A stretch of DNA of 64,000 nt from Frateuria terrea (GTDB lineage Bacteria > Pseudomonadota > Gammaproteobacteria > Xanthomonadales > Rhodanobacteraceae). The translations under genes and the position numbers were made by a program. The notes below the pieces were generated by a model. That model was not told where the DNA came from and did no database searches. It saw nothing but the letters and a program-made list of their open reading frames with translations. Of this stretch, positions 29,647 through 48,596 are shown in pieces; position 1 is the stretch's first letter, and each line of letters opens with the position of its first letter. The stretch covers positions 310,001-374,000 of the forward strand of contig NZ_FOXL01000004.1 of the NCBI RefSeq assembly GCF_900115705.1, written 5' to 3'.

Positions 29647-29742
29647 TCGCGTATCTCGCAACGTTTTACGCGGAAAGCGCAAGGCATATCCGGCGTGGGT
29701 TGCCGGCAGCTTAAAGGTTGGCCGCGAGACCGGCCTCGGCAG

Positions 29743-29756
29743 TGCAAACGTATTCA
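29743..29756 (+). promoter_or_regulatory. LacI-type operator copy 1 (alpha-glucosidase)
   Basis: TGCAAACGTATTCA, 97 bp upstream of the GH13 alpha-glucosidase start. It differs from the copy at the lacI-type gene in one base (A for T at position 5). The central ACGT with flanking A/T and the 14-bp size fit LacI-family operators. Confidence 0.7.
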
Positions 29757-29934
29757 TTCGTGCTGGTCTGCAGCATCGCAGGCGCACTGCACGCTGGTAG
29801 GCGATCCAGCGCAGGGCGTGCCTCGGGCGCCAGCACCCTTTGCCACCACGCACTCCGTGCATGCCAACGAACCGATCGGCCAGGCATCGCACTCAGCTTG
29901 CTGCAGTGCGGTGCGCGCCCATGCGCGCTCGCCA

Positions 29935-29948
29935 TGAATACGTATGCA
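29935..29948 (-). promoter_or_regulatory. LacI-type operator copy 2 (TonB receptor)
   Basis: TGAATACGTATGCA on the plus strand, the exact complement of the copy beside the regulator gene. It lies 139 bp upstream of the receptor ATG. Confidence 0.75.
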
Positions 29949-30086
29949 CTCCTGCGCTGCGCCCAAAACAACGTCTTTATGATCGGACCACGTCTTAATA
30001 ACGCTGCCAGACGTGGCGATCGACTGCGAGCGCGATCCGCCGACAAAGAGACTTGCAACCATTCAGCGGTTTTTCCGGAGGGGAGA

Positions 30087-32999
30087 ATGAAACAACCAGA
30101 ACGCAACCTTCTTGCGGTCGCGATCGCCACGGCATGCTTCGGGCTTTGCTCGACGGCAGCCGCCGCGACCGCGCCCGTCACGGCCCAGGGCCTCGCCCCG
30201 GCGCAGGACCAGGCACAGAACCAGTCTGCAGACCAGGCCGACAACGGCAAGACCAATCAGAAGACCCGCCAGGGCAAGACCAAGACGCTGCAGGCAGTCG
30301 AAGTCAGCGGCTTCGTCAGCAGCATCGAGAACTCCACGGCGCTCAAGCGCAACGCCAACGGCATCGTCGAAGCCGTCTCGGCCGAGCAGGTCGGCAAGCT
30401 GCCTGGCGTCTCCATCGCCGACTCGCTGGGCCGCCTGCCCGGCCTGGCGGTGCAGACCGTGAGCGGTCGCCCGCAGGTGCTGACCATCCATGGCCTGGGT
30501 CCCGATCTATCCACCGCGCTGGTCAACGGCGGCCAGCAGGTGTCCACCTCCAACAACCGCGACGTGCAGTTCGACCAGTACCCGTCGAGCTGGTTCGACA
30601 ACGTGGTCGTGCACATGTCGCCGTCTGCCGACCTGATCGGCCAGGGCCTGGCCGGCACGGTGGACATGCATACCATCCGCCCGCTCGAGAAGAGCGGCCC
30701 CGAAGCGGCGGTGAATGCGCATTACATCTGGGACGGCATGGGCCAGCTCGCCGACGGCCCGAACGTCAGCGACAAGGGTTACAACCTCAACGGCGTCTGG
30801 GTGCACCAGTTCGCCGACCACACCCTGGGCGTGACCCTGGGCGTGGACCTGGAAAACAACCCCTCCCAGATCCAGCACGAAGGGCCGTGGGGCTATGCCA
30901 CCGACGCCGATGGCAACCTGGCCATCGGCGGCTCGAAGAACTACGGCATCTCCGACTCGATGAAGCGCCGCGGCGTGCTCGCCACCGTGCAGTGGCAGCC
31001 GAACGAGCACTACACCGGCACCATCGACCTGACCTACGACAACTTCAAGGAAGTGCAGCAGGCCAAGGGCATGGAGTTCCCGCTGTTCTACAGCTCCGCG
31101 CAGCTGCAGCCCGGCAGCGTGGTGCAGAACGGCTTCGACGACAGCGGCACCTACACCAACGTCAAGCCGGTCATCCGCAACGACTTCAACAGCACCAGTG
31201 CCCGGGTCTACAACCTCAACTGGGACAACAAGTTCACCATCAACGAGGACTGGTCGGTCGACCTCGACGGCAACTACTCGCGCGCCACCCGCCGCGACAT
31301 CAACCTGGAGAGCTACTCCGGTACCGGCTTCACTACGGCCAACGGCGCCACCGACACCATCGGCTTCGACCAGCACAGCAACGGCCTCACCTACTTCAGC
31401 CCCTCGCTGGACTACACCCAGGGTGTGGTGCTGACCGACCCGCAGGGCTGGGGCGGCGGCAACGACGTGGTGCAGGCGGGCTTCATCAACGCACCGCATA
31501 CCGTCGACTACCTCGCCAACCTGCGCCTGGCGGTGGAACGCAGCTTCGGCAGCGGCCCGTTCTCCAGCATCGAGTTCGGCGTGGCGCACAGCACGCGCAA
31601 CAAGACCTACCACATCGATCAGGACTTCCTGACGTTGGGCGGCGGGACCATCAGCGGTGGCAATGCGGTCGAGACCGCACCGTTCACCGGTAACACCTGC
31701 GATCCGCTGTCGTGGGCGGGCGTGGGCCAGCAGCTCTGCTACAACCCGTTCGACCTGATCGCCAGCGGCACCCTGGTGGCCGTGCCCACCTTCGGCTCGT
31801 CGCTGGACCTGCCGCCGAACTGGAAGGTGCGCGAAAAGGTGCTCACGCCTTACGTGCAACTCAACCTGGACACCTATCTGGGCGGTGTCAGCCTGCGCGG
31901 CAACGTCGGCGTGCAGGCGCAGCACACCTCGCAGACCGCCAGCGGCGAACAGGCCCTGCCGGGAACCCCGTCCAGCGGCAATGCAGTGGATCTGGTTCCG
32001 GTAAGCGGCAGCACCAGCTACAACAAGTACCTGCCCAGCGCCAACCTGATCTTCGGCTTCGGCGACAACGACGACCTGCGCGTCAGCGCGGCGCGCACCC
32101 TGGCCCGGGCTCGCATGGACCAGATGAACGCAAGCGTCGCGGTGACCGGCAACGTCAACAACCTCACGGTGACCGACCCGAACCAGTCGTATTTCAGCGC
32201 CAAGCATGGCAATCCCACGCTCAAGCCGACCATGGCGGACAACTACAACGTCAGCTATGAGCATTACTTCTCCGGCGGCAACGGCTTCGAGTGCAACAAC
32301 GCCGACCAGAAGAACTCCGATCTGTGCCGCAGCGGTGGCGGCGGCTACTTCTCGGTGTCGGGCTACTTCATCAAACTGAAGGACTACATCAACCCGAACC
32401 GTGCTGAACTGTACGACTTCAGCGCCTACCTGCCGTTCGGCCTGACGCCGGCCCAGTTGTCCCAGCTCGGCACCACGCTGGGCACCAACACCGGTCCGGA
32501 GAACGATGGCCGTGGCTACGTCAAGGGCGCACAGCTGACGTTGAACCTGCCGTTCAACGTGATCGCGCAACCGCTCGATGGCTTCGGCATGATCCTCACC
32601 GGCAATCGCACCAAGAGTTCGGTGGTGTACGCCGGCAATCCCGAGCCGCTCACGGTGCCTGGCCTGTCCAAGTGGGTCGCCAACGCCACGCTGTACTACC
32701 AGCACCAGGGCTTCGAGGCCCGCGTCAGCGACGACTACCGCTCCAGCTTCCTTGGCGAGGTGTCGGGCATCAGCGCCTCGCGCATCGAGCAGACGATCAA
32801 GGGCGGCAGCACCTACGACGCACAGGTGAGCTACACCTTCGGGAGCGGCGCCTTCAAGGGCCTGACCCTGATCGCGCAGGGATCCAACCTGTCCAACAAG
32901 TCCTTCGTCACCTACCAGAACAACGACCCGCGGCAGGTGCTGACCTGGGAAAGCTACGGCCGGCGCTACGACGTCGCCGTGTCGTACAAGTTCCAGTGA
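30087..32999 (+). CDS. TonB-dependent receptor, probable maltodextrin transporter
   Basis: A 970-residue outer-membrane barrel importing oligosaccharides with TonB/ExbBD energy. Signal peptide MKQPERNLLAVAIATACFGLCSTAAAA; a Gln/Asn/Lys-rich spacer (35-65); plug domain from AVEVSGFVSSIENSTALKRNANGIVEAVSAEQVGKLPGVSIADSLGRLPGLAVQ, a form typical of carbohydrate receptors of Xanthomonas and Caulobacter such as MalA; then a 22-strand-type barrel ending RRYDVAVSYKFQ. ATG 30087 has GGAGGGGAG just upstream; an in-frame start inside the operator at 29934 is less likely. Surrounding amylases make starch breakdown products the inferred substrate. Confidence 0.93.
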   Translation: MKQPERNLLAVAIATACFGLCSTAAAATAPVTAQGLAPAQDQAQNQSADQADNGKTNQKTRQGKTKTLQAVEVSGFVSSIENSTALKRNANGIVEAVSAEQVGKLPGVSIADSLGRLPGLAVQTVSGRPQVLTIHGLGPDLSTALVNGGQQVSTSNNRDVQFDQYPSSWFDNVVVHMSPSADLIGQGLAGTVDMHTIRPLEKSGPEAAVNAHYIWDGMGQLADGPNVSDKGYNLNGVWVHQFADHTLGVTLGVDLENNPSQIQHEGPWGYATDADGNLAIGGSKNYGISDSMKRRGVLATVQWQPNEHYTGTIDLTYDNFKEVQQAKGMEFPLFYSSAQLQPGSVVQNGFDDSGTYTNVKPVIRNDFNSTSARVYNLNWDNKFTINEDWSVDLDGNYSRATRRDINLESYSGTGFTTANGATDTIGFDQHSNGLTYFSPSLDYTQGVVLTDPQGWGGGNDVVQAGFINAPHTVDYLANLRLAVERSFGSGPFSSIEFGVAHSTRNKTYHIDQDFLTLGGGTISGGNAVETAPFTGNTCDPLSWAGVGQQLCYNPFDLIASGTLVAVPTFGSSLDLPPNWKVREKVLTPYVQLNLDTYLGGVSLRGNVGVQAQHTSQTASGEQALPGTPSSGNAVDLVPVSGSTSYNKYLPSANLIFGFGDNDDLRVSAARTLARARMDQMNASVAVTGNVNNLTVTDPNQSYFSAKHGNPTLKPTMADNYNVSYEHYFSGGNGFECNNADQKNSDLCRSGGGGYFSVSGYFIKLKDYINPNRAELYDFSAYLPFGLTPAQLSQLGTTLGTNTGPENDGRGYVKGAQLTLNLPFNVIAQPLDGFGMILTGNRTKSSVVYAGNPEPLTVPGLSKWVANATLYYQHQGFEARVSDDYRSSFLGEVSGISASRIEQTIKGGSTYDAQVSYTFGSGAFKGLTLIAQGSNLSNKSFVTYQNNDPRQVLTWESYGRRYDVAVSYKFQ

Positions 33000-33029
33000 G
33001 GTACTGACCGGTTCACGTTCTCCCCGTGT

Positions 33030-33066
33030 GCCCCGCCGAGCGGATTCCGGCGGGGCATTTTTGTTT
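33030..33066 (+). terminator. Terminator after the receptor gene
   Basis: GCCCCGCCG and CCGGCGGGGC form a GC-rich stem with an eight-base loop, followed by ATTTTTG. It probably lets the highly expressed receptor transcript end while some transcription reads on into the downstream genes. Confidence 0.8.
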
Positions 33067-33107
33067 TCACGCCCGCGCCGTCGGCGGGCCACGACAGGAG
33101 CTAGCGC

Positions 33108-34634
33108 ATGGGCGAAGACAGCGACACGCGCGTGCGTGACATCGTGATCGTCGGTGGCGGTACCGCCGGCTGGATGACCGCTGCCCTGCTCTCTCGCGCG
33201 CTGGGCGATCAGGTGCACATCCGGCTGATCGAATCAGACGAAATCGGCACGGTCGGCGTGGGTGAATCCACCATTCCCTCGATCCGCCTGGTCAACGGCT
33301 TCCTCGGCCTGGACGAGGACGACCTGCTCCGTTCCGTGCAGGGCACGATCAAGCTCGGCATCCAGTTCAACGACTGGCATCGTATTGGCCAGTCCTACCT
33401 GCATGCCTTCGGCGACATCGGGCTGCCGCTGGGCCTGCTGCCGTTCCACCCGTACTGGCTGCGCAGCCAGCGGGATCCGGCCGCGCCCGACCTGTGGGCG
33501 TACTCGCTCAACGCGCGTGCCATCGCCGCCCATCGCTTCGCGCGCATGGAACGGATCGATGGCACCCCGCTCGCGGGCTTGCGCTGGGCCTACCACCTCG
33601 ACGCCGGACGCTACGCCCGCTACCTGCGCCAGCATGCGGCGCAGGGTGTGCAGCGCACCGAAGGCAAGGTCATCAAGGTCGACCTGCGCGCGGCCGACGG
33701 CTTCATCGAATCGGTGCAACTGGCGAGCGGCGAAACCATCGCCGGCGACCTGTTCGTCGACTGCTCCGGCTTTCGTGGCCTGCTCATCGAGGACGCGCTC
33801 AAGACCGGCTACGAAGACTGGCGCCATTGGCTGCCGTGCGACCGCGCGGTGGTCGCGCCGAGCAGCCGCGTAGAGCCGCTGCGCCCGTTCACCCAGGCCA
33901 ACGCGCGACCGGCCGGCTGGCAATGGCGCATCCCGCTGCAGCACCGCAGCGGCAACGGCCACGTCTATTGCAGCCAGTTCACCGGCGACGACGAAGCAGC
34001 CGCCCTGCTCGTCGAAAACATCGAGGGTGAGCTGCTGGAGCAACCGCGGCTGCTGCGCTTTACCAGTGGCATGCGCCGGCAGAGCTGGAACCGCAACTGC
34101 GTGGCGCTGGGCCTGGCCGCCGGCTTCATGGAACCGCTCGAATCGACCAGCATCCACTTGATCCAGTCAGGTGTGCAGCGGCTGCTCTCCCTGTTCCCCG
34201 ACCGCCACTGCGACACCGCGCTGGTGGCCGAGTACAACCGCCAGACGCGCTTCGAGTACGAGCGCATTCGCGACTTCCTGATCCTGCATTACCGCGCCAT
34301 CGAGCGCCGCGACACTCCTTTCTGGCAGCACTGTGCGCACATCGCGATGCCCGAGCCGCTCGAGCGCAAGCTGGCCTTGTTCCGCAGCGGCGGCCGCATC
34401 GTGCGCGATGGCGACGAACTGTTCGCCGAGCCCGCGTGGCTGCAGGTGATGCTGGGCCAGGGCATCGAACCGGACGGCCATCACCCGCTGGCCGGCGCGC
34501 TGCCGCAGGCGCAGCTGGACGAGTTCCTTTCCCACATCCGCACGCTGCTCGATCGCGCCGTCGGCAGCATGCCGGAACACGCGCAGTTCATCGCCCGGCA
34601 TTGCGCCGCCGGCGACACGGTGGTGGCCGCCTGA
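33108..34634 (+). CDS. Flavin-dependent tryptophan-halogenase-like protein
   Basis: A 508-residue flavoprotein of the PrnA/RebH fold. The FAD site is GGGTAGW (residues 16-22); the WxWxIP motif of flavin halogenases is Trp271-Gln-Trp-Arg-Ile-Pro276; the HOCl-relay lysine is Lys82 (GTIKLGIQF), and the catalytic Glu lies in FMEPLESTSIHLI. All hallmark residues are therefore kept. Related genes regularly neighbour carbohydrate TonB receptors in Xanthomonas, Caulobacter and Shewanella, where their true substrate is unknown. The stop codon shares a base with the next amylase start. Confidence 0.88.
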   Translation: MGEDSDTRVRDIVIVGGGTAGWMTAALLSRALGDQVHIRLIESDEIGTVGVGESTIPSIRLVNGFLGLDEDDLLRSVQGTIKLGIQFNDWHRIGQSYLHAFGDIGLPLGLLPFHPYWLRSQRDPAAPDLWAYSLNARAIAAHRFARMERIDGTPLAGLRWAYHLDAGRYARYLRQHAAQGVQRTEGKVIKVDLRAADGFIESVQLASGETIAGDLFVDCSGFRGLLIEDALKTGYEDWRHWLPCDRAVVAPSSRVEPLRPFTQANARPAGWQWRIPLQHRSGNGHVYCSQFTGDDEAAALLVENIEGELLEQPRLLRFTSGMRRQSWNRNCVALGLAAGFMEPLESTSIHLIQSGVQRLLSLFPDRHCDTALVAEYNRQTRFEYERIRDFLILHYRAIERRDTPFWQHCAHIAMPEPLERKLALFRSGGRIVRDGDELFAEPAWLQVMLGQGIEPDGHHPLAGALPQAQLDEFLSHIRTLLDRAVGSMPEHAQFIARHCAAGDTVVAA

Positions 34635-36202
34635 TGGGCCTGCGCTGGCTGGCGATGCTCGCCGCGGCGCTGCTTGCCGCACTGCCACCCGGCGTCGGCT
34701 TTGCGGCAAGCGACTACCGCTCCCCGGAGGGGCACGCCAACACGCCGGCGTCCGCCCCATCCCGCAGCGGCGTCTGGTACGAGATCTTCGTGCGCGCCTG
34801 GTACGACACCGACGGCGACGGCATCGGCGATCTGAACGGCGTCACCGAAAAACTCGACTACCTCAAGTCGCTCGGCGTCGACGGCATCTGGCTGATGCCG
34901 ATCAATCCCTCGCCCAGCTACCACGGCTACGACGTCACCGACTACCGGGCGGTCAATCCCCAATACGGCACGCTGGCCGATTTGCACCGCTTGCTGGAGG
35001 CGGCGCACGCGCGCGGCATCCGCGTGATCATGGACCTGGTCGTCAATCACACCAGCGATCGCCATCCGTGGTTCCTCGCCGCACCTTATCCGGCCGACCC
35101 GCACCACGCCTGGTACAGCTGGGCCGGCCCCGGCACCGATCTCGATGCAAGGAGCGCCACCGGCGGTCAGGCCTGGCACGCGCTGGGCAAGCAGCACTAC
35201 CTGGGTATTTTCACCAGCGGCATGCCGGACCTGGATTTCGACACGCCGGCCGTGCGCAAGGAAATCATCGCCATTGGCCGCTACTGGCTGGCCCAGGGCG
35301 TGGATGGCTTCCGTCTCGATGCCGCCCGCCACATCTATGACGATTTCGCCGCCACCGCCGATGACCCCGCGATGCTGCACCGGAACCTCGCCTGGTGGAG
35401 TGCATTCCACGGCGCGATGAAAGCCGCGCGCCCGGACGTATACCTGGTCGGCGAAGTGACCCGCGACGAACCCAAACAGCTTGCCCCCTGGTACGGCCCA
35501 CTCAACGCGGTGTTCGATTTCCCGCTCGCCGCACAGCTGGTCGAAAGCGCGCGCAACGAACGCAGCGGCAAGCTCGTCGAACTGCTCAAGCGCGTCGCCG
35601 CCGAGATTCCCGCGGGCCAGGATGCGCCCTTCCTGTCCAACCACGACCAGGAACGGGTGATGAGCCAGCTCGATGGCAACGCGCAGCACATGCGCACGGC
35701 CGCGGCGATGCTGCTCACTTTGCCCGGCCGGCCGTTCATCTACTACGGCGAGGAACTGGGCATGCGGGGCCGCAAACCCGACCCGGACCTGCGCGAGCCG
35801 ATGCGCTGGCACCGCGATCCGCACGGCCCAGGCGAAAGTCGCTGGAAGCGCTTCAGCGCCGGCGACGGGCCGGACGTGTCGGCGGACGCCGAAGAGGGCG
35901 ATGCGCATTCGCTGCTCGCCCGCTATCGCATGCTAATCGACTGGCGCCGGGAGCTGCCGGTGCTGCGCGACGGCGTCCTCCATGTGCCGGATGTTCCCAA
36001 CCGGCGCCTTGCCACATGGGAACTGACCGATGCCGGCCACGACGTGCTGGTCGTGCACAACCTCTCGCGCAAGCCGCAAACGCTGAAACTGGGCGGTCCG
36101 CTCGCACGCTTCCGCCAGGTTCGCCTTGCCAGCGATCCCGGCGGCCGGGTCGCTGCCGGCCAGTTGCAACTTCCTGCCTACGCTTCGGTGGTGCTGCAGT
36201 GA
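34634..36202 (+). CDS. Exported GH13 alpha-amylase/glucosidase
   Basis: A 522-residue GH13 enzyme with an N-terminal signal (GLRWLAMLAAALLAALPPGVGFAA). Catalytic residues are Asp229 (DGFRLDAARH), Glu274 (YLVGEVTRDE) and Asp338 (FLSNHDQERV); the calcium-type loop YDTDGDGIGDLNG is present at residues 57-69. The C-terminal beta sandwich begins near residue 430. It probably works in the periplasm on imported maltodextrins. Its ATG overlaps the halogenase-like stop (TGATG), so the two are translationally coupled. Confidence 0.92.
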   Translation: MGLRWLAMLAAALLAALPPGVGFAASDYRSPEGHANTPASAPSRSGVWYEIFVRAWYDTDGDGIGDLNGVTEKLDYLKSLGVDGIWLMPINPSPSYHGYDVTDYRAVNPQYGTLADLHRLLEAAHARGIRVIMDLVVNHTSDRHPWFLAAPYPADPHHAWYSWAGPGTDLDARSATGGQAWHALGKQHYLGIFTSGMPDLDFDTPAVRKEIIAIGRYWLAQGVDGFRLDAARHIYDDFAATADDPAMLHRNLAWWSAFHGAMKAARPDVYLVGEVTRDEPKQLAPWYGPLNAVFDFPLAAQLVESARNERSGKLVELLKRVAAEIPAGQDAPFLSNHDQERVMSQLDGNAQHMRTAAAMLLTLPGRPFIYYGEELGMRGRKPDPDLREPMRWHRDPHGPGESRWKRFSAGDGPDVSADAEEGDAHSLLARYRMLIDWRRELPVLRDGVLHVPDVPNRRLATWELTDAGHDVLVVHNLSRKPQTLKLGGPLARFRQVRLASDPGGRVAAGQLQLPAYASVVLQ

Positions 36203-36352
36203 AGACACCGATGCATTTCCCGGACCAGCCATGACGCCGGCGAAGGTATGGGAATCGTCAAAGCAGCATCCGGAAAGCGTACGGCCGAGTCCGTTTTTCG
36301 TCCTTCCCTCCGCACTGACCCATCGTGCACCGCACCATCGGAAAACCGCGCC

Positions 36353-38842
36353 ATGTCACGAATGAATACGTATGCACACGGGTGTCGCGACGCGCGCGAT
36401 GAGCCCTACCATGGGCCCGGCTCCGGTCGCCTGCACGCGCTCTTCACAAAGCTCAAGCGCGCGTCAACCGGGCCGATCACGTGGTTCGTTGTCGGAGTAC
36501 TGCTGGTGTCCCCCTCTTCCGCTGCTGCATCGCTTTCCCTGGCCCGGGCGCACGCTGCGCCGGCCAAGTCCGCTTCCATCGCGCCGGCCGCGCCGGGGTT
36601 CGACATCCCGCTCGGCGCCGACACGCTCCGCGTCGAACTGGCCGCGCCCGGCACGTTGCACGTCCAGTTCCGCAAGGCCGGCCACGCGCCGTTGCCGACG
36701 ATCGTGATCGATCCGGCGCTGCAGGCCTCGACCCATCCCAGCGCAGATGTTTCCCAGGACGCCCACGGCGCACGGCTGCACTCGGCGCAACTCGACGCGG
36801 TATGGGACAAACAGCACGGCGAACTCCGCATCGGCGTGCCGGGCCAGCCGCCGCTGCTGCGCCAGTTCGCCCTGCCCTTGCTGGGCCACGGACGGCTGAG
36901 CCTGATCCATGCCAAGGGCGAGCCCAAGTATGGCATCGGCGGCTTCGACGCCACCGAGCCGGCCACCGCCGGCCTGCTGCGCAACGGCTACCGCCCGGTC
37001 ACCGCCGGCGAGCAGGGCCACGCGGGCGCGCCGTTCGTGTGGAGTACCGCCGGCTACGGCGTGCTGATCGACGGCGTCGGCGGACAGATCGCGCTGGGCG
37101 ACACTCGCATCGACGCACGCATGTTCGACGGCGGCCTGGACTATTACGTGTTCCTCGGCGAGCCGCACGCGATCTTCGGCGCGCTGGCGCAGGTCAGCGG
37201 CCGCAGCCCGCTGTTTCCGAAATGGGCGATGGGTTTCACCAATAGCCAGTGGGGCATCGACGAGAAGGAGTTGCTGGACATCGTCCACGGCTACCGAGAG
37301 CGCCACATCCCGCTGGACAACTTCACCCTCGACTTCGACTGGAAGGCCTGGGGCGAAGACAACTACGGCGAGTTCCGCTGGAACGAGCACAAGTTCCCCG
37401 ACGGGGACAGCGGCAAGCTCAAGTCCCTGCTCGATGCGCAGGGCGTGCACCTGACCGGCATCATGAAGCCGCGCATCCACGTGGATACGGTCGAAGGCCG
37501 CGAGGCCACCGAACACGGCTACTGGCTCGCGCAGAGCGATCCGGCGCCGGACTATTTTTCCGGCAAGACCGTGCGCGAACTCGACTTCGCCGACCCGGCC
37601 GCGCGCGCCTGGTTTTTCAACGCGGCGCTGAAGCACTCGTTCCAGACCGGCATCGTGGGCTGGTGGAACGACGAGGCCGACGACGTCGCCGTCGACCTGC
37701 AGCACATGGACATGCAGCGCGCGCTCTACGACGGCCAGCGCGCCATTTCCGACCTGCGCGTGTGGTCGCTCAACCGCAACTTCTACCTGGGCGCACAGCG
37801 CTACGCCTATGGCCTCTGGTCCGGCGACATCCGCACCGGCTTCGCTTCCATGGCCGGCCAGCGCCAGCGCATGTTGAGCGCGATCAACGTCGGCGCCATG
37901 CAGTGGGGCATGGACGGCGGCGGCTTCAAGGGTGGCACGCCGACGCCGGAGAACTACGCGCGCTGGATCCAGTTCGGCGCGTTCACGCCGGTGTTCCGCG
38001 TGCACGGCGAGCTCGGCCAGCATCGGCAGCCGTGGGTGTATGGCGCGGATGCCGAGAAAGCGGCCACCGCCGCGATTCGCCTGCGCCAGTCGCTGATCCC
38101 CTACATCTACAGCTACGAGCACCAGCGCCACGCCACCGGTATCGGCCTGGTCCGCCCGCTGCTGTTCGACTGGCCAAGCGACCCGAACCTGCGCAACGAC
38201 TATGACGCCTGGCTGTTCGGCGATAGCCTGCTGGTTTCACCGGTGGTCGAGCAGGGCCAGATGGTCAAGCCGGTTTACCTGCCCGCCGGCGAGTGGATCG
38301 ACTGGTTCACCGGCAAGCACTACGACGGCGGCCGCACCATCGAGCACCAGGCCGACGCCACGCACTGGAGCGACATCCCACTGTACGTGCGCGCGGGCGC
38401 GATCATCCCGATGGCGCCGCCGATGGATTACGTCGGCCAGCGCCCGCTCACCGAGCTGCAGGTGGAACTTTTCCCCGCCGCCGATGGCAGCCAGTTCGAC
38501 TACTACGACGACGACGGCAAGACCTACGGCTACGAGCAGGGCGAATACTTCCTGCAGTCGATGCGGATGCAGGCACACGGCGAGAGCGTGAGTATGGCCA
38601 TCGCCGCACCGCAGGGCAGCTACAAGCCGGCGCTCGAGTCGTGGCTGCTGAAGTTTCACGGGCCATCGGCCGCGGCCGTGCGCAGCAACGGCCGCGCATT
38701 GGAGGCCTTCGCCAGTGTCGATGCCTTGCGCGCTTCCGGCGACGACGGCTGGGCGACCGGCGAGGACCGCTTCGGCCCGGTGACCTGGGTGCGCGTGGCC
38801 GCCGGCCACGCCCAAACCATCACGCTCGACGTGAAAAAGTAA
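36353..38842 (+). CDS. Exported GH31 alpha-glucosidase
   Basis: About 829 residues with the GH31 layout: N-terminal beta domain, barrel from LFPKWAMGFTNSQWGIDEKE, nucleophile region GIVGWWNDEADD, acid/base region LWSGDIRTGFASMAG followed by WGMDGGGF, then distal beta domains with YDDDGKTYGYEQGEY. It cleaves terminal alpha-linked glucose. A hydrophobic segment (TWFVVGVLLVSPSSAAAS) about 40 residues in suggests export. The start is uncertain: ATG 36353 and 36362 flank or lie within an operator-like site and lack a good ribosome-binding site; no better in-frame ATG exists before the membrane segment. Confidence 0.9.
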   Translation: MSRMNTYAHGCRDARDEPYHGPGSGRLHALFTKLKRASTGPITWFVVGVLLVSPSSAAASLSLARAHAAPAKSASIAPAAPGFDIPLGADTLRVELAAPGTLHVQFRKAGHAPLPTIVIDPALQASTHPSADVSQDAHGARLHSAQLDAVWDKQHGELRIGVPGQPPLLRQFALPLLGHGRLSLIHAKGEPKYGIGGFDATEPATAGLLRNGYRPVTAGEQGHAGAPFVWSTAGYGVLIDGVGGQIALGDTRIDARMFDGGLDYYVFLGEPHAIFGALAQVSGRSPLFPKWAMGFTNSQWGIDEKELLDIVHGYRERHIPLDNFTLDFDWKAWGEDNYGEFRWNEHKFPDGDSGKLKSLLDAQGVHLTGIMKPRIHVDTVEGREATEHGYWLAQSDPAPDYFSGKTVRELDFADPAARAWFFNAALKHSFQTGIVGWWNDEADDVAVDLQHMDMQRALYDGQRAISDLRVWSLNRNFYLGAQRYAYGLWSGDIRTGFASMAGQRQRMLSAINVGAMQWGMDGGGFKGGTPTPENYARWIQFGAFTPVFRVHGELGQHRQPWVYGADAEKAATAAIRLRQSLIPYIYSYEHQRHATGIGLVRPLLFDWPSDPNLRNDYDAWLFGDSLLVSPVVEQGQMVKPVYLPAGEWIDWFTGKHYDGGRTIEHQADATHWSDIPLYVRAGAIIPMAPPMDYVGQRPLTELQVELFPAADGSQFDYYDDDGKTYGYEQGEYFLQSMRMQAHGESVSMAIAAPQGSYKPALESWLLKFHGPSAAAVRSNGRALEAFASVDALRASGDDGWATGEDRFGPVTWVRVAAGHAQTITLDVKK
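36363..36376 (-). promoter_or_regulatory. LacI-type operator copy 3 (GH31)
   Basis: TGAATACGTATGCA on the plus strand, identical to the receptor copy, at the extreme 5' end of the GH31 frame. It implies a promoter in the 150-bp gap after the upstream GH13 gene, so the downstream enzyme genes can be induced separately from the receptor transcript. Confidence 0.72.
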
Positions 38843-38876
38843 GCCGCAAGGTTTGGCCGTCCGGCCCGCACCGTAA

Positions 38877-40964
<2,088 letters not shown>

Positions 40965-40979
40965 GGAGTTGACGCGCGC

Positions 40980-43151
40980 ATGCTGAGCCTGTTGCTGATG
41001 GCCTCGATGGCGACCACCCCGGACCTGCCCGACGCGGCATGGCGCAATGGCCTGGACTGGCGCGGCACGCACGTGTCCATGCAGCGCGACGCTGGTGGCG
41101 CCTACCGCCTGAAGGGGTCTTCCGGCCAGCGCGTCATCCCCGCGTCGCCGCTCGGGGCGGCGACCGCCAGCGCGCTCTTCGATGGCCTCTACGCGATGGC
41201 ACAGGACGACCTGAAGCAGGATTCGGTCGAAGCCATCCGCGACGGCGCCTTCGATCACGGCGAACCCATCCCCTGCCTGTGCTTCGAGACCGGCCAGAAG
41301 TGGCCCTATGTGTGGACGCGGGACCTCTCCTACGCGATCGACCTGGGGCTTTGGCGGTTCGATCCCGCACGCTCCCGCAACGGACTGGAGTTCAAGCTGT
41401 CCGAGGTGCGCGTGCCATCTGCGCCGCAGGGCCTGTACGTGATGCAGGACACCGGCTCGGGCGGCAGCTGGCCGATCAGCACCGACCGCATCGTGTGGTT
41501 CCTGGGCGCACGCCATCTGCTGGACGATGCCGGCTTCGCCGCCAAGGTGCGCCAGGCGCTGACCGATACGCTGGCACAGGATCGGCAGTACGCCTTCGAT
41601 CCGGCACTCGGACTCTACCGCGGCGAAACCTCGTTCCTCGACTGGCGCGAGCAGACCTACCCGGCGTGGACGGCGGACAACGTGCGCTTCATCGCGCAGT
41701 CCTTTGCGCTTTCCACCAACGTGCTTCATTACCAGGCGTTGCAGATGGCCGCCACGCTGGCGGACAAGCACGGCGATTCCGACGCGGCCGCCTACCGCGC
41801 CCAGGCCGCGGCCCTCAAGACGGCGATCAACCAGCACTTCTGGCGCGCCGACCGCGGCCTCTACATGAGCTACATCGGCGGCGACGGCCTGCCGGTGGAG
41901 GCCTACGACCTGCTCGGCACATCGCTGGCGATCACCAGCGGCGTGGCCGATAGGGCGCGCGCAAGAGAGGCCCTCTCGCACTACCCCACCTGGCCCGCCG
42001 GCAGCCCGGTGATCTGGCCCGAGCGTGCCGACCAGCCGATCTACCACAACCGCGCGATCTGGCCGTTCGTCAGCGCCTATGCGCTACGCGCGGCGCGCGC
42101 CGTGGATGACCCCGCGCGCATCGCGCACGAGATCCGCTCGGTCATCCGCGGCGCCGCGCTGGCCGGCTCCAACATGGAAAACTACGAGCTGCTGACCCAG
42201 GCGGTGCACGTCGACGACGGTGCGCTCAGCGGCCCGGTGGTCAATTCGCCGCGCCAGCTGTGGTCGGTGGCCGGTTTCCTCGACGTCGCGATCGAAGGCG
42301 TGTTCGGCCTGACCGGCGATGGCCGGGTCGAACCCAAGCTGCCGGTCTCGCTGGTACCGGCCCTGTTCGGCGATGCGGACCACATCGACCTGCAGTTGCA
42401 CGATCGCCGGATCACGCTGCGCCGTCCCGCCCGATTGGAGGGCAACCTGCTGGTCGCCGGCACGATACGGCAGGAGGGCAACCACACGGTGGTGAACCTC
42501 AAGGCCATCGAGGTCCCCGGGCGCCCGCTGCGCACCGACGCGCCGCTGTACGCGCCCGCGACGCCGCCCGCGCCCACCGTCGAGGCCGACGGCGACCAAT
42601 GGCGCGTGCACAGCCCAGGCAAGGGCGTGCTCTACGTCAATGGACGCCGCCACGGCGCGATCGACGGCAGCGCGGCGATCGCGCGCACGTCAGCCCTCCC
42701 ATGCTTCCGCGTGACGCACATCGACAGCCACGGCGTCGAGTCGCTGCCCAGCCCCGAAGCATGCCCCGGCGGCAAGAGCCGGGTCGCGGGCGCCTGGCCG
42801 CGCAGCTGGACTGCGCCCGCGTCCGGCCGTTACCGCGTCATGCTCGGCTACACCAACCCGCATGGCCCGATCAACACCGGCATCACCGCCGCGGTAAAGT
42901 GGCTGGTGATCGATTGTGGTGAGGGTGCGCCGCAAAGGCTGCCACTGGCGATGCCACACAGCGACGGCCGCCAGCAATCGACCTGGGGCGACTTCACCGC
43001 CACGGCCGGCGCGCGCTGCCACTTCCATCTCGAAGATGGTTTCAACATGAGCTATCTGCGCCACAACGCCCACTACACCGGCGGCGCGGGTGGCGCGGCA
43101 GGCCCGCTGAACGAGGCCGACGTCGGCGAGCTGCTGATATCGCCGCTTTGA
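40980..43151 (+). CDS. Six-hairpin glycosidase, amylo-glucosidase/debranching-like
   Basis: A 723-residue protein with an (alpha/alpha)6 barrel. Visible blocks are GQKWPYVWTRDLSYAIDLGLW (near residue 107), FLDWREQTYPAW, DLLGTSLAITSGVA, PVIWPERADQPIYHNRAIWPFVSAY and ENYELLTQA, the set seen in GH15/GH63/glycogen-debranching relatives. The acidic residues in TRDLS and PERADQ are candidates for catalysis. The C-terminal 200 residues are beta-rich with FRVTHIDSHGVES and a distal cysteine-bearing module that I cannot place. The short hydrophobic start (MLSLLLMASMA) may direct export. It likely removes branch or terminal glucose. Confidence 0.8.
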   Translation: MLSLLLMASMATTPDLPDAAWRNGLDWRGTHVSMQRDAGGAYRLKGSSGQRVIPASPLGAATASALFDGLYAMAQDDLKQDSVEAIRDGAFDHGEPIPCLCFETGQKWPYVWTRDLSYAIDLGLWRFDPARSRNGLEFKLSEVRVPSAPQGLYVMQDTGSGGSWPISTDRIVWFLGARHLLDDAGFAAKVRQALTDTLAQDRQYAFDPALGLYRGETSFLDWREQTYPAWTADNVRFIAQSFALSTNVLHYQALQMAATLADKHGDSDAAAYRAQAAALKTAINQHFWRADRGLYMSYIGGDGLPVEAYDLLGTSLAITSGVADRARAREALSHYPTWPAGSPVIWPERADQPIYHNRAIWPFVSAYALRAARAVDDPARIAHEIRSVIRGAALAGSNMENYELLTQAVHVDDGALSGPVVNSPRQLWSVAGFLDVAIEGVFGLTGDGRVEPKLPVSLVPALFGDADHIDLQLHDRRITLRRPARLEGNLLVAGTIRQEGNHTVVNLKAIEVPGRPLRTDAPLYAPATPPAPTVEADGDQWRVHSPGKGVLYVNGRRHGAIDGSAAIARTSALPCFRVTHIDSHGVESLPSPEACPGGKSRVAGAWPRSWTAPASGRYRVMLGYTNPHGPINTGITAAVKWLVIDCGEGAPQRLPLAMPHSDGRQQSTWGDFTATAGARCHFHLEDGFNMSYLRHNAHYTGGAGGAAGPLNEADVGELLISPL

Positions 43152-43250
43152 ACAATCCATCACCTGCATGAGCGCACCGGGCGCGAGCCGGGCCTGGCCT
43201 GCGCGCCCAAGGGCGCTCCTGCAGGCGACCACTGTCGACGGAACTCCTGG

Positions 43251-44735
43251 ATGAGCAACAAACCCAACCTGTCCTTCTGGCAGATCTGGAACATGTGTTT
43301 CGGCTTCCTGGGGATCCAGTTCGGATTCGCGCTGCAGAACGCCAACGTCAGCCGCATCTTCCAGACGCTGGGCGCGGATGTGGCCGACATCCCGGTGCTG
43401 TGGATCGCCGCGCCGCTGACCGGGCTGATCGTGCAGCCGATCATCGGCCACCTGTCCGACCACACCTGGAACCGGTTGGGCCGTCGCCGGCCCTATTTCC
43501 TGGTCGGCGCGGTGCTGACCACACTGGCCCTGCTGTGGATGCCCAACGCGCCCGCGCTTTGGATCGCCGCCGGGCTGCTGTGGATCATGGATGCCTCGAT
43601 CAACATCTCGATGGAACCCTTCCGCGCCTTCGTTGGCGACCAGCTGCCGCCACGCCAGCGGCCGCTCGGCTATGCAATGCAGAGTTTCTTCATCGGCGTC
43701 GGCGCGGTGGTCGCCTCCGCCCTGCCCTGGCTGCTGGCCAGGCTCGGCGTCGCCAACGTGGCGCCCGCCGGTGGCGTGCCCGACACGGTGAAGTACGCCT
43801 TTTACGCCGGCGCCCTGGTGTTGCTTGGCGCGGTGCTGTGGACCATCGTCACAAGCCCCGAGTACCCGCCGCAGCAACTGCGCGAACAGGCCGACGACGC
43901 TCCGGCCGGAACGCCTGCGGACACCTCGCGTGCCTGGCGCTTCGGCGCGACGCTGCTGGGGCTGGGCGTGGCGCTGCTGTTTGCGATCGCCCACTTCGGG
44001 TTGGAAAAGGAGCTCTACCTGCTCGGCGGCGGCCTGGCCGTGTTCGGCGTGTTGTTCGTCTGGCTGGCGTTCGCGCGGGGCCATGGCATGGTGCAGCAGG
44101 TGATGAGCGACCTCTACGCCATGCCCGGCCCGATGCGGCGGCTGGCCTGGGTGCAGTTCTTCTCCTGGTTCGCCCTGTTCGCCATGTGGATCTACACCAC
44201 CCAGGGCGTGGCGCAGAGCTTCTTCGGCAGCACCGACACCAGCACGGCGGCCTACAACGAAGGGGCCAACTGGGCCGGCGTGCTGTTCGCCGTGTACAAC
44301 GGCGTGGCGGTGCCGGCGGCCGTGCTGATCCCCTGGATGGTGCGCCGCTGGGGCCTGCGCATCAGCCACCTGGTGAACCTGTTCCTGGGCGGCGCCGGCC
44401 TGCTGTCGTTCGTGGTGCTGCACGACGCGCGCTGGCTGGTCGCCTCGATGGTCGGCGTGGGTTTCGCCTGGGCCTCGATCCTGTCGCTGCCCTACGCGCT
44501 GCTGTCGGACAACCTGCCGGCGGCGAAGATGGGCGTCTACATGGGCATCTTCAATTTCTTCATCGTCATCCCGCAGCTGCTCGCCGCCAGCGTACTGGGC
44601 CTGCTGCTGAAGACCTTCTTCCATGGCCAGCCGGTCTGGGCGCTGGCGCTCGGCGGCGCGAGCCTGCTCATCGCCGGCCTGTGCACGCTGCGCGTGCGCG
44701 AGCCAGATGCCACGCCCGCGATGCAGGCCGCTTAG
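43251..44735 (+). CDS. MFS sugar transporter, SUT/GPH type
   Basis: A 494-residue 12-helix inner-membrane permease. The first loop carries [24 protein letters not shown]; the RxGRRRP block is the signature shared by sucrose/maltose cation symporters. It begins [35 protein letters not shown], as in the maltose-linked MFS proteins of Xanthomonas and Caulobacter loci. A central loop of about 25 hydrophilic residues ([18 protein letters not shown]) divides two halves. It is the only intact inner-membrane sugar carrier in the locus. Confidence 0.9.
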
Positions 44736-44766
44736 CCCGCAAGCACACCGATTTCAAGGACGCAGC

Positions 44767-46449
44767 ATGAAGCTCACGATCCGCACGACCTGCCTGGTGG
44801 TGGCCCTCGGTCTCGGCACCGCGCACGCCGCCACGCCCGCGCACGATTTCTACGGCACGGACGCGCCTTTCGCCTCCAACGCCATCTACTTCGTGATGAC
44901 CGACCGCTTCGTCAACGGCGATCGCTCCAACGACCATCGCGACCAGGGCGGCGCGCATCCCACCTTCGATATTCCGGTATCCGGCGCGCCCAAGGGCCAG
45001 AGCGCCAACATCGGCTACCTGGGCGGCGACTTCAAGGGCGTGCTCGACAACGCCGGCTACATCCACGGCATGGGCTTCGGCGCGGTGTGGATCACGCCGA
45101 TCGTGGACAACCCCGACCAGGCATTCACCGGCGGCGACCCGGTGAGCTGGGGCTCGAAATTCACCGACCGCGGCAAGACCGGCTTCCACGGCTACTGGGG
45201 AATCAACTTCTACAGGCTCGACGAACACCTGCCGAGCAAGGACCTGGACTTCGCGCAGTTCACCGCGGGCATGCACAAGGCGGGGCTCAAGGTGGTGCAG
45301 GACATCGTGCTCAACCACGGCTCGCCGGCCTTCACCATGCCGGTACGCCAGCCGCAGTTCGGACAGATCTTCGACGAACACGGCAAGCTCGTCGCCGACG
45401 AGCAGAACCTGCCACCGTGGCAGCTCGACCCGCGCCACAACCCGCTACACCGCTTCTACCACGCATACGAGGACCTGGCGCAGCTGTCCAACAACGACGA
45501 AACCAACCCGGCGGTCCTGGACTACTTCGCCGGCGCGTACCTGAAATGGATCGGCCAGGGTGCGGACGCCTTCCGCATCGACACGATCAGCCACATGTCG
45601 ACCACATTCTGGCGCCAGTTTTCCGCACGCATCCGCGCGAAGCACCCCGGCTTCTTCATGTACGGCGAGGCGTTCGACTACAGCCCGGACAACATCGGCA
45701 AGTACACCTGGCCATCGAGCGGCGGCATCAGCCTGCTCGACTTTCCGCAGCAGCAGGCAATCAAGGCGGTGTTCGAACATCCGCACAGCGACTACCGGCT
45801 GCTGCTGTCGAAGCTGTACCTGACGAACGGGCCGTACGCGAACCCGTACGAGCTGGTCACCTTCTACGACAACCACGACATGGCGCGCATGGATGCCAGC
45901 GATGCGGGTTTCATCGACGCCGACAACTGGCTGTTCACCGCGCGCGGCATCCCTGCGATCTACTATGGCTCCGAGACCGGCTTCGAGCGCGGCCGTGCCG
46001 AGCACGAGGGCAACCGCAACTATTACGGCCAGGCGCGCATCGACGCGGCGGCCGAAAGTCCGATCTATCGCCAGCTCAGGCGCATCGCCCAGCTGCGCGC
46101 CCATACGCCCGCGCTGCAGCGCGGCTTGATGCTCGTCGAGCGCCTGGACGGCGACCAGGCCGTGTTCTACCGCGTCTACCAGCACGATGGCGCGCACCAG
46201 ATCGCGCTGGTGCTGCTCAACAAGGGCGACAAGGTGGCACGGTTCCACGTGACGAAGTACCTGCAGTCAGGCCATTGGCAGCCGGCACTGGGCGGCGATG
46301 CCGTCGACGTGCCGGCTGGCGGCGCGCTGGATGCGGGCGTCGGTCCGCACGACGTGGCTGTGTACCTGCTCGACGCGCCGGCCACCCGCGATGACCTGGT
46401 GACCGCATTGAGCCGGCTGATGCGCGACAAGAGCCATCCGGATGACTGA
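44767..46449 (+). CDS. Exported GH13 alpha-amylase
   Basis: A 560-residue GH13 enzyme with a clear signal peptide (MKLTIRTTCLVVALGLGTAHAA). It starts YFVMTDRFVNGDRSND, a CGTase/maltogenic-amylase-like N-terminus, with GYLGGDFKGVLD. Catalytic Asp272 (DAFRIDTISHM), Glu301 (FMYGEAFDYSPD) and Asp371 (FYDNHDMARM). The C-terminal beta domain is short (about 480-550) and no starch-binding domain is present, so it may act on soluble dextrins. It follows the permease by 31 bp and overlaps the esterase gene by eight bases. Confidence 0.9.
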   Translation: MKLTIRTTCLVVALGLGTAHAATPAHDFYGTDAPFASNAIYFVMTDRFVNGDRSNDHRDQGGAHPTFDIPVSGAPKGQSANIGYLGGDFKGVLDNAGYIHGMGFGAVWITPIVDNPDQAFTGGDPVSWGSKFTDRGKTGFHGYWGINFYRLDEHLPSKDLDFAQFTAGMHKAGLKVVQDIVLNHGSPAFTMPVRQPQFGQIFDEHGKLVADEQNLPPWQLDPRHNPLHRFYHAYEDLAQLSNNDETNPAVLDYFAGAYLKWIGQGADAFRIDTISHMSTTFWRQFSARIRAKHPGFFMYGEAFDYSPDNIGKYTWPSSGGISLLDFPQQQAIKAVFEHPHSDYRLLLSKLYLTNGPYANPYELVTFYDNHDMARMDASDAGFIDADNWLFTARGIPAIYYGSETGFERGRAEHEGNRNYYGQARIDAAAESPIYRQLRRIAQLRAHTPALQRGLMLVERLDGDQAVFYRVYQHDGAHQIALVLLNKGDKVARFHVTKYLQSGHWQPALGGDAVDVPAGGALDAGVGPHDVAVYLLDAPATRDDLVTALSRLMRDKSHPDD

Positions 46450-47389
46450 GACGCACCGCGTTCGCTCCCTGGCACGCTGCTGGTTCGCGCTGGTCCTGCT
46501 GCTTCCCTGCGCGCTGCAGGCGCAGGTACAGAAGCTCGAGCTCGACGCTCCTGCCTTCGCCCCCGAGCGCATCCACGTCACGGTGTACCTCCCGCCGGAC
46601 TATGGTCACTCGACCGCCCGTTACCCCGTGCTGTACGCCGACGACGGCCAGGACATGCAGGCCGTGGGACTGCAGCCGACGCTGGCGAAGCTCTATGGCG
46701 AACACGCCATCGAGCCCGTCATCGTCGTCGCCATCGACATGCTGCGAGACCGTGCCAGTGGCTACGGCCTTTCCGACCGCCAGCGCGGGCAGAGCGTGGT
46801 CGGCGGGTCGCGCATCGGTGCCATCGGCCTGCGTGCTGCGGACTATTCCGCCTGGGTGGCAACCTCGCTGGTACCAACCATCGACGCGCACTACCGCACA
46901 CGCGCCGACGCCCGCCAGCGCACGGTGATGGGCTGGTCGCTGGGCGCGCTCAATGCGTTCAACCTGGGCTGGCAGTATCCGGACGTGTTCGGCCAGGTGG
47001 GCGCGATGTCGCCTTCGTTCTGGCTGGCCGGCGATCGCAGCGATGCGGACGCGGTACAGCGCAGCCGGCTTGCGCAGGCGATGGTGGACCGCGGACCCAA
47101 GCGCCAGGGCATGCGGTTCTGGTTCGCCGCCGGAACGGCCGAGGAAACCAACGATCGCGACCATGATGGCGTCATCGATGTGATCGACGACCTCAAGGAC
47201 CTGATCGATGGCTGGCACGCCAATGGCGCGCAGCGGCGGGGCCTGCGCCAGCTTGGCTACTCGACCACGGGTACGGATGCGGACGTGACCGTGTTCCTGC
47301 TGTCGGGTGGGCATCACCAGCAGGCGTCGTGGGCGAAGATGCTGCCTGTGTTCTTGCGCTGGGCGTTTCCGGCGACCCCACGGCCGTAG
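46442..47389 (+). CDS. Exported alpha/beta-hydrolase, esterase D/IroE-like
   Basis: A 315-residue hydrolase with a signal peptide (CWFALVLLLPCALQA-Q). The N-terminal HVTVYLPPDYGHSTARYPVLYADDGQDM block and the nucleophile elbow GWSLGALNAFNLGWQYPDVFGQVGAMSPSFW match the enterochelin-esterase/EstD group; the catalytic His is probably in SGGHHQQASW. The segment DRDHDGVIDVIDDLKD looks like a calcium-binding loop. Overlap with the amylase gene suggests co-translation. Its place in starch use is unclear; removing acyl groups from modified sugars is one possibility. Confidence 0.82.
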   Translation: MTETHRVRSLARCWFALVLLLPCALQAQVQKLELDAPAFAPERIHVTVYLPPDYGHSTARYPVLYADDGQDMQAVGLQPTLAKLYGEHAIEPVIVVAIDMLRDRASGYGLSDRQRGQSVVGGSRIGAIGLRAADYSAWVATSLVPTIDAHYRTRADARQRTVMGWSLGALNAFNLGWQYPDVFGQVGAMSPSFWLAGDRSDADAVQRSRLAQAMVDRGPKRQGMRFWFAAGTAEETNDRDHDGVIDVIDDLKDLIDGWHANGAQRRGLRQLGYSTTGTDADVTVFLLSGGHHQQASWAKMLPVFLRWAFPATPRP

Positions 47390-47480
47390 TGTTCCGCCAG
47401 CCCCGCCCCCTCACCCCGCCCCCGCCGCGGAAGGCAGAGGGAGCAGAGCCGGTCGGCACGCTGGTGGGAGAACGCGTTGG

Positions 47481-48512
47481 CTATGCGGGCCTTACGCTCG
47501 ACTGCCGCACCATCAGCTTCACCGGCAGCATCATGCTCTGCGCCGGTTCGCCGCGGATCATCCTGAGCAGGCTGTCGACCAGCACCTCGCCGGCGCTGCG
47601 GGTGTCCTGCAGCACGGTGGTGAGCGGCGGGCTGGCGAAGCGCGCCATGGGGATGTCGTCGAAACCGGCGACCGGGACCTCCGCCGGCACCTTGTAGCCG
47701 TGCTCCGCCAGCGCCCGCATGGCGCCGATGGCGATCAGGTCGCTGGCGGCGAACACCGCATCGAAAGCCACACCGCGGCCGAGCAGTTCGGACATGGCCG
47801 TATGGCCGCACATCTGCGTGCTCTCGGCGTCCACCTGCAGGGTCTGGTCCACGTCCAGCCCTGCCTGCTGCAGGGCCTCGGCATAGCCGCGATAACGCTC
47901 GAAGAACTCCGGGTAGTGGCTGGAGGCGTCGCCCAAAAAGGCGATCCTGTGGCAGCCCTGCTCGATGAAATGCCGCGCCACGGCCTGGCCACCGCTGAAG
48001 TTGTCGCAGCCGACCGACACGCCCGGCTGATCGGGCAGCACCGCACCCCAGCGCACGAAGCGCGTGCCGATCGCCACCAGCTTCTCCAGCCGGTCGAGGT
48101 AGGCCAGGTAATCGCCGTAGCCGAGCAGGATGATGCCGTCGGCCTTCTTGCTGTCGGCGTAGTCGGCGTGCCAGTCGGTTGAGAACTGCTGGAAGGAAAC
48201 CAGCAGGTCGTAGCCCTGGTGCGCGCAGGCGCGGGTGATCGAACCCAGCATCGAGAGGAAGAACGGGTTGATGTTCGAGCCATCGGTGGTCGGGTCCTCG
48301 AACAGGAGCAGCGCCAACGTGCCCGAATGCTGCAGCCGCAGGTTGGAGGCGTTCTTGTCCACCTTGTAGCGCAGCTGTTCGGCGGCGGCGCGGATGCGCT
48401 CGCGGGTTTCCTCGCTGACCAGCGGACTGCCACGCAGGGCGCGCGACACCGTCGCCTGGGAAACCCCCGCCAGGTGGGCGATGTCGATCGACGTCGCTTT
48501 GGCCTTGCTCAC
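47481..48512 (-). CDS. LacI-family transcriptional regulator of the starch locus
   Basis: A 343-residue repressor. The helix-turn-helix is TSIDIAHLAGVSQATVSRALRGS with hinge NASNLRLQHSGTLALL; the sugar-binding domain includes IILLGYGDYLAYLD, GGQAVARHFIEQGCHRIAFLGD and FDAVFAASDLIAIGAMRALAEHGYKVPAEVPVAGFDD. I start at GTG 48512 (VSKAKATSIDI) because AGAGG lies upstream and the length is then typical; an ATG at 48587 lies inside the operator. It faces the locus convergently. The four shared 14-mers, one 71 bp before this gene, imply autoregulation and control of the cluster, with a maltodextrin as inferred inducer. Confidence 0.9.
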   Translation of the reverse strand: MSKAKATSIDIAHLAGVSQATVSRALRGSPLVSEETRERIRAAAEQLRYKVDKNASNLRLQHSGTLALLLFEDPTTDGSNINPFFLSMLGSITRACAHQGYDLLVSFQQFSTDWHADYADSKKADGIILLGYGDYLAYLDRLEKLVAIGTRFVRWGAVLPDQPGVSVGCDNFSGGQAVARHFIEQGCHRIAFLGDASSHYPEFFERYRGYAEALQQAGLDVDQTLQVDAESTQMCGHTAMSELLGRGVAFDAVFAASDLIAIGAMRALAEHGYKVPAEVPVAGFDDIPMARFASPPLTTVLQDTRSAGEVLVDSLLRMIRGEPAQSMMLPVKLMVRQSSVRPA

Positions 48513-48582
48513 TGCTGTGAAACCTCTGGTACGGCTGGCGTCGCCAACCTTACCATCGGCCGGTCGCGCTGTACCGGCGACC

Positions 48583-48596
48583 TGCATACGTATTCA
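48583..48596 (+). promoter_or_regulatory. LacI-type operator copy 4 (regulator gene)
   Basis: TGCATACGTATTCA, 71 bp upstream of the chosen regulator start and also upstream of the decayed transporter gene on the other strand. It is the exact complement of copies 2 and 3. Confidence 0.75.

Follow-up and report, generated by a model that had tools for sequence, protein, structure and literature searches.

Starch and maltose loci resembling the one analyzed here have been described in Xanthomonas, namely XAC2595-XAC2602 in X. citri (PMC10714752) and the XCC2469 locus in X. campestris (PMC1790865). Both are described as containing genes for a TonB receptor, GH13 enzymes, and an MFS transporter, with a LacI-family gene in X. 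citri. Several of the XAC2595-XAC2602 genes are up-regulated on starch (PMC10714752), and the receptor gene XCC2469 is induced by maltose (PMC1790865). The accessible parts of these descriptions name no operator; for XAC2595, repression was proposed (PMC10714752).

Two other regulators of the LacI family are comparable. For MalR of Shewanella, sites were predicted before operons for a TonB receptor, a glucosidase, and a transporter, as here (PMC2996990); this likeness is by description only, and promoter geometry and motif polarity do not figure in the accessible part of that description. MdxR of Enterococcus faecium controls maltodextrin genes positively, its loss lowering their expression (PMC3737153), like the activation proposed here. 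MdxR is, however, from a Gram-positive system in which the transport genes differ, and its operator is not described in the accessible main text (PMC3737153).

The window, i.e., the whole analyzed stretch of 64,000 nucleotides from Frateuria terrea, contains a locus whose gene order (LacI, GH13, MFS ... TonB receptor, GH13) resembles that described for XAC2595-XAC2602 (PMC10714752) and for the X. campestris maltose locus (PMC1790865). A GH97 gene is described for the X. citri locus (PMC10714752), whereas the window contains a GH31 gene, a halogenase-like gene, and a larger number of GH13 genes. In total, the locus comprises genes for a LacI-type regulator, an esterase, four GH13 enzymes, a GH31 enzyme, a further glycosidase, an MFS/GPH transporter, a halogenase-like protein, and a TonB receptor. 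The genes, operators, and putative promoter elements are as follows.

28030..29646, minus strand: cytoplasmic GH13, alpha-glucosidase-like
29708..29713, minus strand: putative -10 TAAGCT of the GH13 promoter, 43 nt from the motif start
29743..29756, minus strand: GH13 operator, TGAATACGTTTGCA on the minus strand; one of the conserved GH13/TonB-receptor pair
29935..29948, plus strand: TonB receptor operator, TGAATACGTATGCA on the plus strand
29978..29983, plus strand: putative -10 TATGAT of the TonB receptor promoter, 43 nt from the motif start
30087..32999, plus strand: TonB-dependent receptor, TIGR01782, Xanthomonas/Caulobacter type
33108..34634, plus strand: Trp_halogenase-family flavoprotein
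34634..36202, plus strand: GH13 with a SusG-type C-terminal domain
36363..36376, plus strand: GH31 operator, TGAATACGTATGCA on the plus strand; also at GH31 in three stretches of other Frateuria (L071, L099, L101)
36407..36412, plus strand: putative -10 TACCAT of the GH31 promoter, 44 nt from the motif start
36467..38842, plus strand: GH31, alpha-glucosidase-like; start uncertain
38925..40964, plus strand: GH13, neopullulanase/maltodextrin-glucosidase-like
40980..43151, plus strand: glycosidase with weak (alpha/alpha)6-type domain matches, termed GH15-like
43251..44735, plus strand: MFS/GPH-type inner-membrane sugar transporter
44767..46449, plus strand: GH13 with a signal-like start
46442..47389, plus strand: putative esterase, PF00756
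47481..48512, minus strand: LacI-family regulator (LacI HTH and Peripla_BP_3), the proposed binder and activator
48547..48552, minus strand: putative -10 TAAGGT of the LacI-type gene, 44 nt from the motif start
48583..48596, minus strand: operator between the LacI-type gene (minus) and a sugar-transporter remnant (plus)
48599..48627, plus strand: putative sugar-transporter promoter of the reversed-operator class, CGGACG, 17 nt, CAGATT, the latter 39 nt from the motif start
48664..48809, plus strand: remnant of a Sugar_tr transporter gene, internally deleted; intact copies in relatives

The start codon that two related Frateuria apparently use for GH31 is not conserved in the window (36362-36506), and the nearby in-frame ATG, GTG, and TTG codons are located before the operator, overlapping it, or inside the signal sequence. 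The Trp_halogenase-family gene lies behind the TonB receptor gene in the window (33108-34634) and in L238 and L248, and is found near operator sites in L132, L148, L247, and L251.

The 14-mer in the window and in the genome

A 14-bp operator-like sequence had been placed by the preliminary description at 29935, 36363, and 48583, with a one-mismatch copy at 29743, and the window and genome scans bore out all four positions. The window contains TGCATACGTATTCA at 29935 (minus strand), 36363 (minus strand), and 48583 (plus strand), and TGCAAACGTATTCA at 29743 (plus strand). With up to three mismatches allowed, no place in the window other than these four was found (8 strand-wise matches; mean of 1.21 and maximum of 5 in shuffled sequences). 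The exact 14-mer is not scattered in unrelated coding DNA: the whole genome (3,838,145 bases in 16 contigs) holds three copies, all in the starch locus. The only one-mismatch copy in the genome is the one at 29743, and all four sites lie within one 19-kb stretch.

All four window sites fit an even palindrome with a central CG, TGMAWACGTWTKCA. This symmetric form was found at five places genome-wide, the fifth being on a different contig, flanked by zwf and a GntR/UTRA-type gene; the reversed control pattern was found at none in a scan of the same genome. One mismatch adds four further places, including one upstream of a pyruvate kinase gene (TGCAATCGTATGCA) and one inside a tonB-like frame, both identified by eye from the translation. 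The asymmetry of the half-sites, said earlier to be kept in all copies, is genuine, with TGAA on one side and TGCA on the other at each of the four window sites. Moreover, the sites are oriented: TGAAtac...TGCA points to the gene assigned to it in the preliminary description in 4 of 4 cases. These genes, encoding the GH13 enzyme, the TonB receptor, the GH31 enzyme, and the LacI-type protein, do follow the four sites, and the site at 48583 additionally faces the sugar-transporter remnant. No description of the motif was found in the titles and abstract beginnings of the open-licence papers listed, and a text search for the motif itself gave a single bifidobacterial paper, which deals with another subject.

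Two other roles for these sites were considered and rejected. A role as start codons (ATGAATACGTATGCA would read MNTYA) is at odds with the -10-like hexamer downstream and with the later ATG in the GH31 frame of two relatives. The motif does not fit a -35 or alternative-sigma element, being separated from the -10 by about 29 nt, counted from the motif end.

The LacI-type protein and its distribution with the sites

By its domains, the product of 47481-48512 belongs to the LacI/GalR family, having a LacI-type HTH (PF00356, 57.8 bits) and a periplasmic-binding-protein-like core (PF13377, 113 bits), both above the Pfam cut-offs. The NCBIfam model of the named maltose regulator MalI was matched at 110.6 bits, below its curated cut-off of 310, and the best NCBIfam model was a GntR equivalog (163.8 bits, cut-off 400). 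The named relatives at 91-92% identity are from Frateuria. The stretch GVSQ(A/P/S)TVSRALR is retained in the nine LacI sequences inspected, of 49 aligned, down to 53% identity. The hinge, YKVDKNASNL, is identical in four of these nine and variant in the others; the usual LacI-family hinge is YxPNxxARxL.

Co-occurrence of the protein and the sites was analyzed in 233 genomes of the family, with E <= 1e-100 as the threshold for a LacI ortholog. The TGMAWACGTWTKCA form was found in 167 of these genomes vs. 10 for the reversed control pattern. It was present in 156 of the 161 genomes with a LacI ortholog and in 11 of the 72 without one; these genomes are mutually related and not independent, and a formal p-value for this comparison is no true probability. 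Four of the five genomes with an ortholog and no site hold a site with one or two mismatches at the usual spacing from TAAGCT (L255-L257) or TACCAT (L260); in the fifth, G006, the GH13 gene is split. The 11 genomes with a site and no ortholog include five of genus g16, as well as G029, G010, G081, G167, G178, and G181. The g16 genomes and G029 have a single site each, TGCAAACGTTTGCA or TGAAAACGTTTTCA where placed in g16 and TGAAAACGTATGCA in G029. Among 26 picked genomes of the order from outside the family, all 20 site-bearing ones have a LacI match of 1e-111 or better, and the best match in the 6 site-free ones is no better than 1e-33.

The GH13 ortholog shows the same pattern, and the presence/absence comparison did not separate the LacI gene from its locus. 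The link between the sites and the LacI-type protein is thus indirect, because genomes nearly always have both the regulator and the orthologous GH13 gene or neither. This joint presence is what could be expected if some other regulator bound the 14-mer and the LacI-type protein were a mere passenger of the locus. A second LacI-type gene, of 32-34% identity, is located near an operator site in L089, L145, and L154, and the zwf and pyruvate kinase sites, being mostly symmetric, also leave room for this explanation. Nevertheless, most LacI-family factors (1173 of 1303; PMC4052901) have even palindromes with CG at the center, and no second DNA-binding regulator was detected by Pfam among the 16 window proteins scanned. 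Binding by another regulator is accordingly rated as quite improbable, and the LacI-type protein is the likely binder of the 14-mer.

Orthologous promoters, orientation, and spacing to a -10-like element

The sites are not missing before orthologous loci: they were found ahead of the starch genes in other genera and families too. In total, 135 sites were found in the window, the zwf locus, and 80 stretches taken from further genomes of the family. The divergent region between the GH13 and TonB-receptor genes usually contains two sites, one per gene. In 38 stretches from other families, in which the genes are rearranged, many sites still lie immediately before genes for GH13, TonB receptor, MFS, and GH15-like proteins. 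The distribution typical of a MalR-type regulon, with sites before genes for a TonB receptor, an alpha-glucosidase, and a sugar transporter, was thus found here.

For orientation, each asymmetric site was compared with the nearest homolog facing away from it within 450 nt and scored as agreeing or opposing. The motif is directional, and TGAATACGTATGCA reads toward most of the target genes. Agreeing and opposing sites numbered 49 and 0 for the TonB receptor, 12 and 0 for the GH15-like gene, 11 and 0 for an isoamylase-like GH13, 7 and 0 for the SusG-type GH13, 6 and 0 for MFS, and 6 and 1 for GH31. For GH13, 37 sites agreed and 6 opposed, all six being located in regions shared with a divergent gene of the locus and pointing toward that gene. 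Orientation is specific to the gene class, and the sugar porter is reversed (0 agreeing, 16 opposing); LacI-type genes gave 2 and 3, and halogenase-like genes 0 and 2. At zwf, two agreeing and five symmetric sites were found, at pyruvate kinase two symmetric ones, and 22 sites had no homolog facing them. Looping between paired operators as the main constraint is unsupported, the distance within the GH13/TonB-receptor pair varying from 131 to 612 bp.

Alignment of 115 asymmetric sites by motif direction alone revealed a T-A-(A/C)-n-(A/C)-T element 43 nt past the motif start, and an A immediately 5' of the motif in 88 of them. For the count, 12 sugar-porter sites were set aside once their reversed orientation had been noticed, leaving 103 in the discovery set; the porter- or remnant-facing sites at 48583 of the window and in L099, L101, L104, L119, and L134 were retained, and three of them are among the 7 misses. 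Symmetric sites (20 in the discovery set and 6 in the validation set) were left unoriented. TAnnnT starts 42-44 nt from the motif start in 91 of the 103 sites and 41-45 nt from it in 96, vs. an average of 0.45 and a maximum of 3 in three-nucleotide control windows. The pattern was derived from this set and tested on a second one, whose genomes were chosen for having sites (55 asymmetric sites, six other families). Here, TAnnnT was found at 42-44 nt in 39 sites and at 41-45 nt in 47, compared with 0 of 55 on the mirror side at 42-44 nt and an average of 0.225 (maximum 1) in control windows.

Combined over many genomes and with the 12 porter sites set aside, 143 of the 158 asymmetric sites share one geometry. 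The hexamer is most often TACCAT (65 of 143) and next most often TAAGCT (36 of 143). The remaining 7 discovery and 8 second-set sites have no -10-like hexamer at 41-45 nt, and the listed hexamer offsets range over 40-46 in the discovery set and 36-51 in the second set. A -35 consensus is absent from the discovery sites, where the best TTGACA match averages 2.14 of 6 positions vs. 2.28 in the background, and no consensus sigma-70 promoter was found in 29600-30120.

It is very improbable that this spacing is merely inherited, i.e., that several genes received copies of a single promoter-operator cassette too recently for drift. Such copying would account for TAAGCT being common to most GH13 promoters and TACCAT to most others, as well as for a sub-group that has a common CTGGTTGCTGCA between the operator and the -10. 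However, the spacer columns between operator and -10 hold little information. When 170 sites were grouped at 65% spacer identity into 133 clusters, the first members of 110 kept the spacing, compared with a mean of 3.9 and a maximum of 10 for shuffled flanks and at most 8 for five-nucleotide windows of the mirror strand.

The CTGGTTGCTGCA stretch was observed in L109, L111, L117, L122, L126, L142, L144, L145, L146, L151, L152, L154, L157, L171, and L172. It is possibly the site of a second factor or a common -35.

An operator that replaces the -35 at fixed spacing and with fixed polarity is the usual layout of an activator. In the predicted promoters, the operator lies at a fixed position upstream of the -35 region, as is characteristic of activators, and does not overlap the -10/+1 region as that of a repressor would. 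The constant upstream distance together with the absence of a -35 consensus therefore fits activation better than promoter-blocking repression. Among described LacI-family systems, CcpA likewise binds a pseudo-palindrome with a central CG and, at ackA, pta, and ilvB, a site upstream of the -35 (PMC3463425). Its cre sites activate from such positions and repress when they overlap the promoter or lie past it; the lev operon, which CcpA represses from an upstream site, departs from this rule (PMC3463425). Unlike the single geometry that prevails here, CcpA is a global regulator that far more often represses (PMC3463425). Activation is probably the best reading for the sites analyzed here, because the operator is located where CcpA activates (PMC3463425) and MdxR is a positive regulator (PMC3737153).

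We thus consider it rather likely that the 14-mer is the operator of the LacI-type protein encoded at 47481-48512, and that this protein is a maltodextrin regulator that activates the locus when loaded with maltose or maltodextrin. A dimer of the protein, most likely in the loaded state, would bind the operator, which has one orientation and is centered about 36 bp before a TACCAT/TAAGCT-type -10, at promoters without a -35 consensus, and would aid RNA polymerase in starting transcription. The genes for GH13, the TonB receptor, and GH31 would each have a separate operator-promoter unit of this kind.

A protein bound at the upstream site could instead hinder RNA polymerase. As a classical repressor, the LacI-type protein would block the polymerase from its upstream edge until released by maltose or maltodextrin, with the spacing fixed because no other position hinders. 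LacI-family regulators are mostly repressors (PMC4451989), MalR of Streptococcus pneumoniae represses via the similar palindrome CGCAAACGTTTKSG (PMC4451989), and repression was proposed for the LacI protein of the similar X. citri locus (PMC10714752). By contrast, CcpA represses from many positions, both over the promoter and past it (PMC3463425), whereas the distance here is 41-45 nt nearly throughout; the promoters also lack a -35 for unaided use, and the motif is polar. Repression therefore appears unlikely, though it is the first alternative to consider. The starch regulon with a 14-bp operator, as suggested by the preliminary description, stands on co-occurrence and orthologous promoters, with the LacI-type protein as its likely binder; the promoter geometry favors activation over blocking.

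LacI-family proteins are known chiefly as repressors. If activation is true, the expected sign of starch control would be reversed in these relatives of Xanthomonas. Promoters across the order in which a LacI-type operator apparently replaces the -35, with strict polarity and spacing, would provide a large natural data set on contacts between this fold and RNA polymerase.

Sites beside LacI, the sugar porter, zwf, and pyruvate kinase

The site beside the LacI gene goes, as judged from the sequences of relatives, with a sugar-transporter gene. Other Frateuria (L071, L072, L099, L101) have a sugar transporter gene past the site, divergent from LacI, and residues 434-474 of the L099 transporter match 48681-48803 of the window at 88%. 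L089 has neither transporter nor site beside LacI; a TAAGGT-type -10-like stretch is seen by eye on its LacI side even with the operator absent. A site no more than 400 nt upstream of LacI was found in 11 of the 86 stretches with a LacI match, some of which overlap in place. Five of these are Frateuria stretches with a divergent porter or its remnant, and the other six, in which a GH13 or TonB-receptor gene lies past the site, belong to three genomes from other families. The named Dyella loci have no site just before LacI, even with one mismatch allowed. Six stretches from other genera have the site ahead of the transporter, with LacI 86-403 nt behind the latter on the same strand; two other stretches with this gene order have no site at the transporter start. 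Because the site accompanies the neighboring transporter gene in relatives, its presence at 48583 is not simple evidence of LacI autoregulation. LacI may be controlled through the transporter site, divergently or by read-through, in some genera but not in others. The porter remnant itself (48664-48809) adjoins its own retained operator and putative promoter.

Sites facing the sugar porter differ in geometry from those described above. They are reversed in 16 of 16 asymmetric cases. Of 20 porter-facing sites, counting that of the window, 16 have a CAGAAT/CAGACT-type hexamer starting at 38-40 and 11 have an nnGACR -35 at 16, by patterns that were written after viewing the sequences and without a control. 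Since the porter sites are reversed and 11 of the 20 porter promoters have an nnGACR -35, the geometry is not uniform, and one geometry fails to cover the whole regulon.

These differences allow a more speculative proposal, which we regard as doubtful, namely that one LacI-family protein reads a code of polarity and position. Forward sites without a -35 (GH13, TonB receptor, GH31, GH15-like, isoamylase, MFS) would be activated, and the reversed, -35-adjacent porter sites and the symmetric zwf and pyruvate kinase sites would be controlled differently, perhaps repressed. One sugar signal would thereby turn on starch uptake and retune central metabolism across the order.

The regulon may be extended by the sites found before zwf and, more weakly, by those before pyruvate kinase. 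In the genome of F. terrea, the symmetric operator-like site between zwf and the GntR/UTRA regulator gene is located on contig C9 (L005, 1501-1514). Sites before zwf were also observed in G093, G096, G077, and G166, and in G275 and G252 of other families. The one-mismatch symmetric site just 5' of pyruvate kinase is located on contig C11 (L263, 1501-1514), and L147 and L155 have exact symmetric sites before their pyruvate kinase genes.
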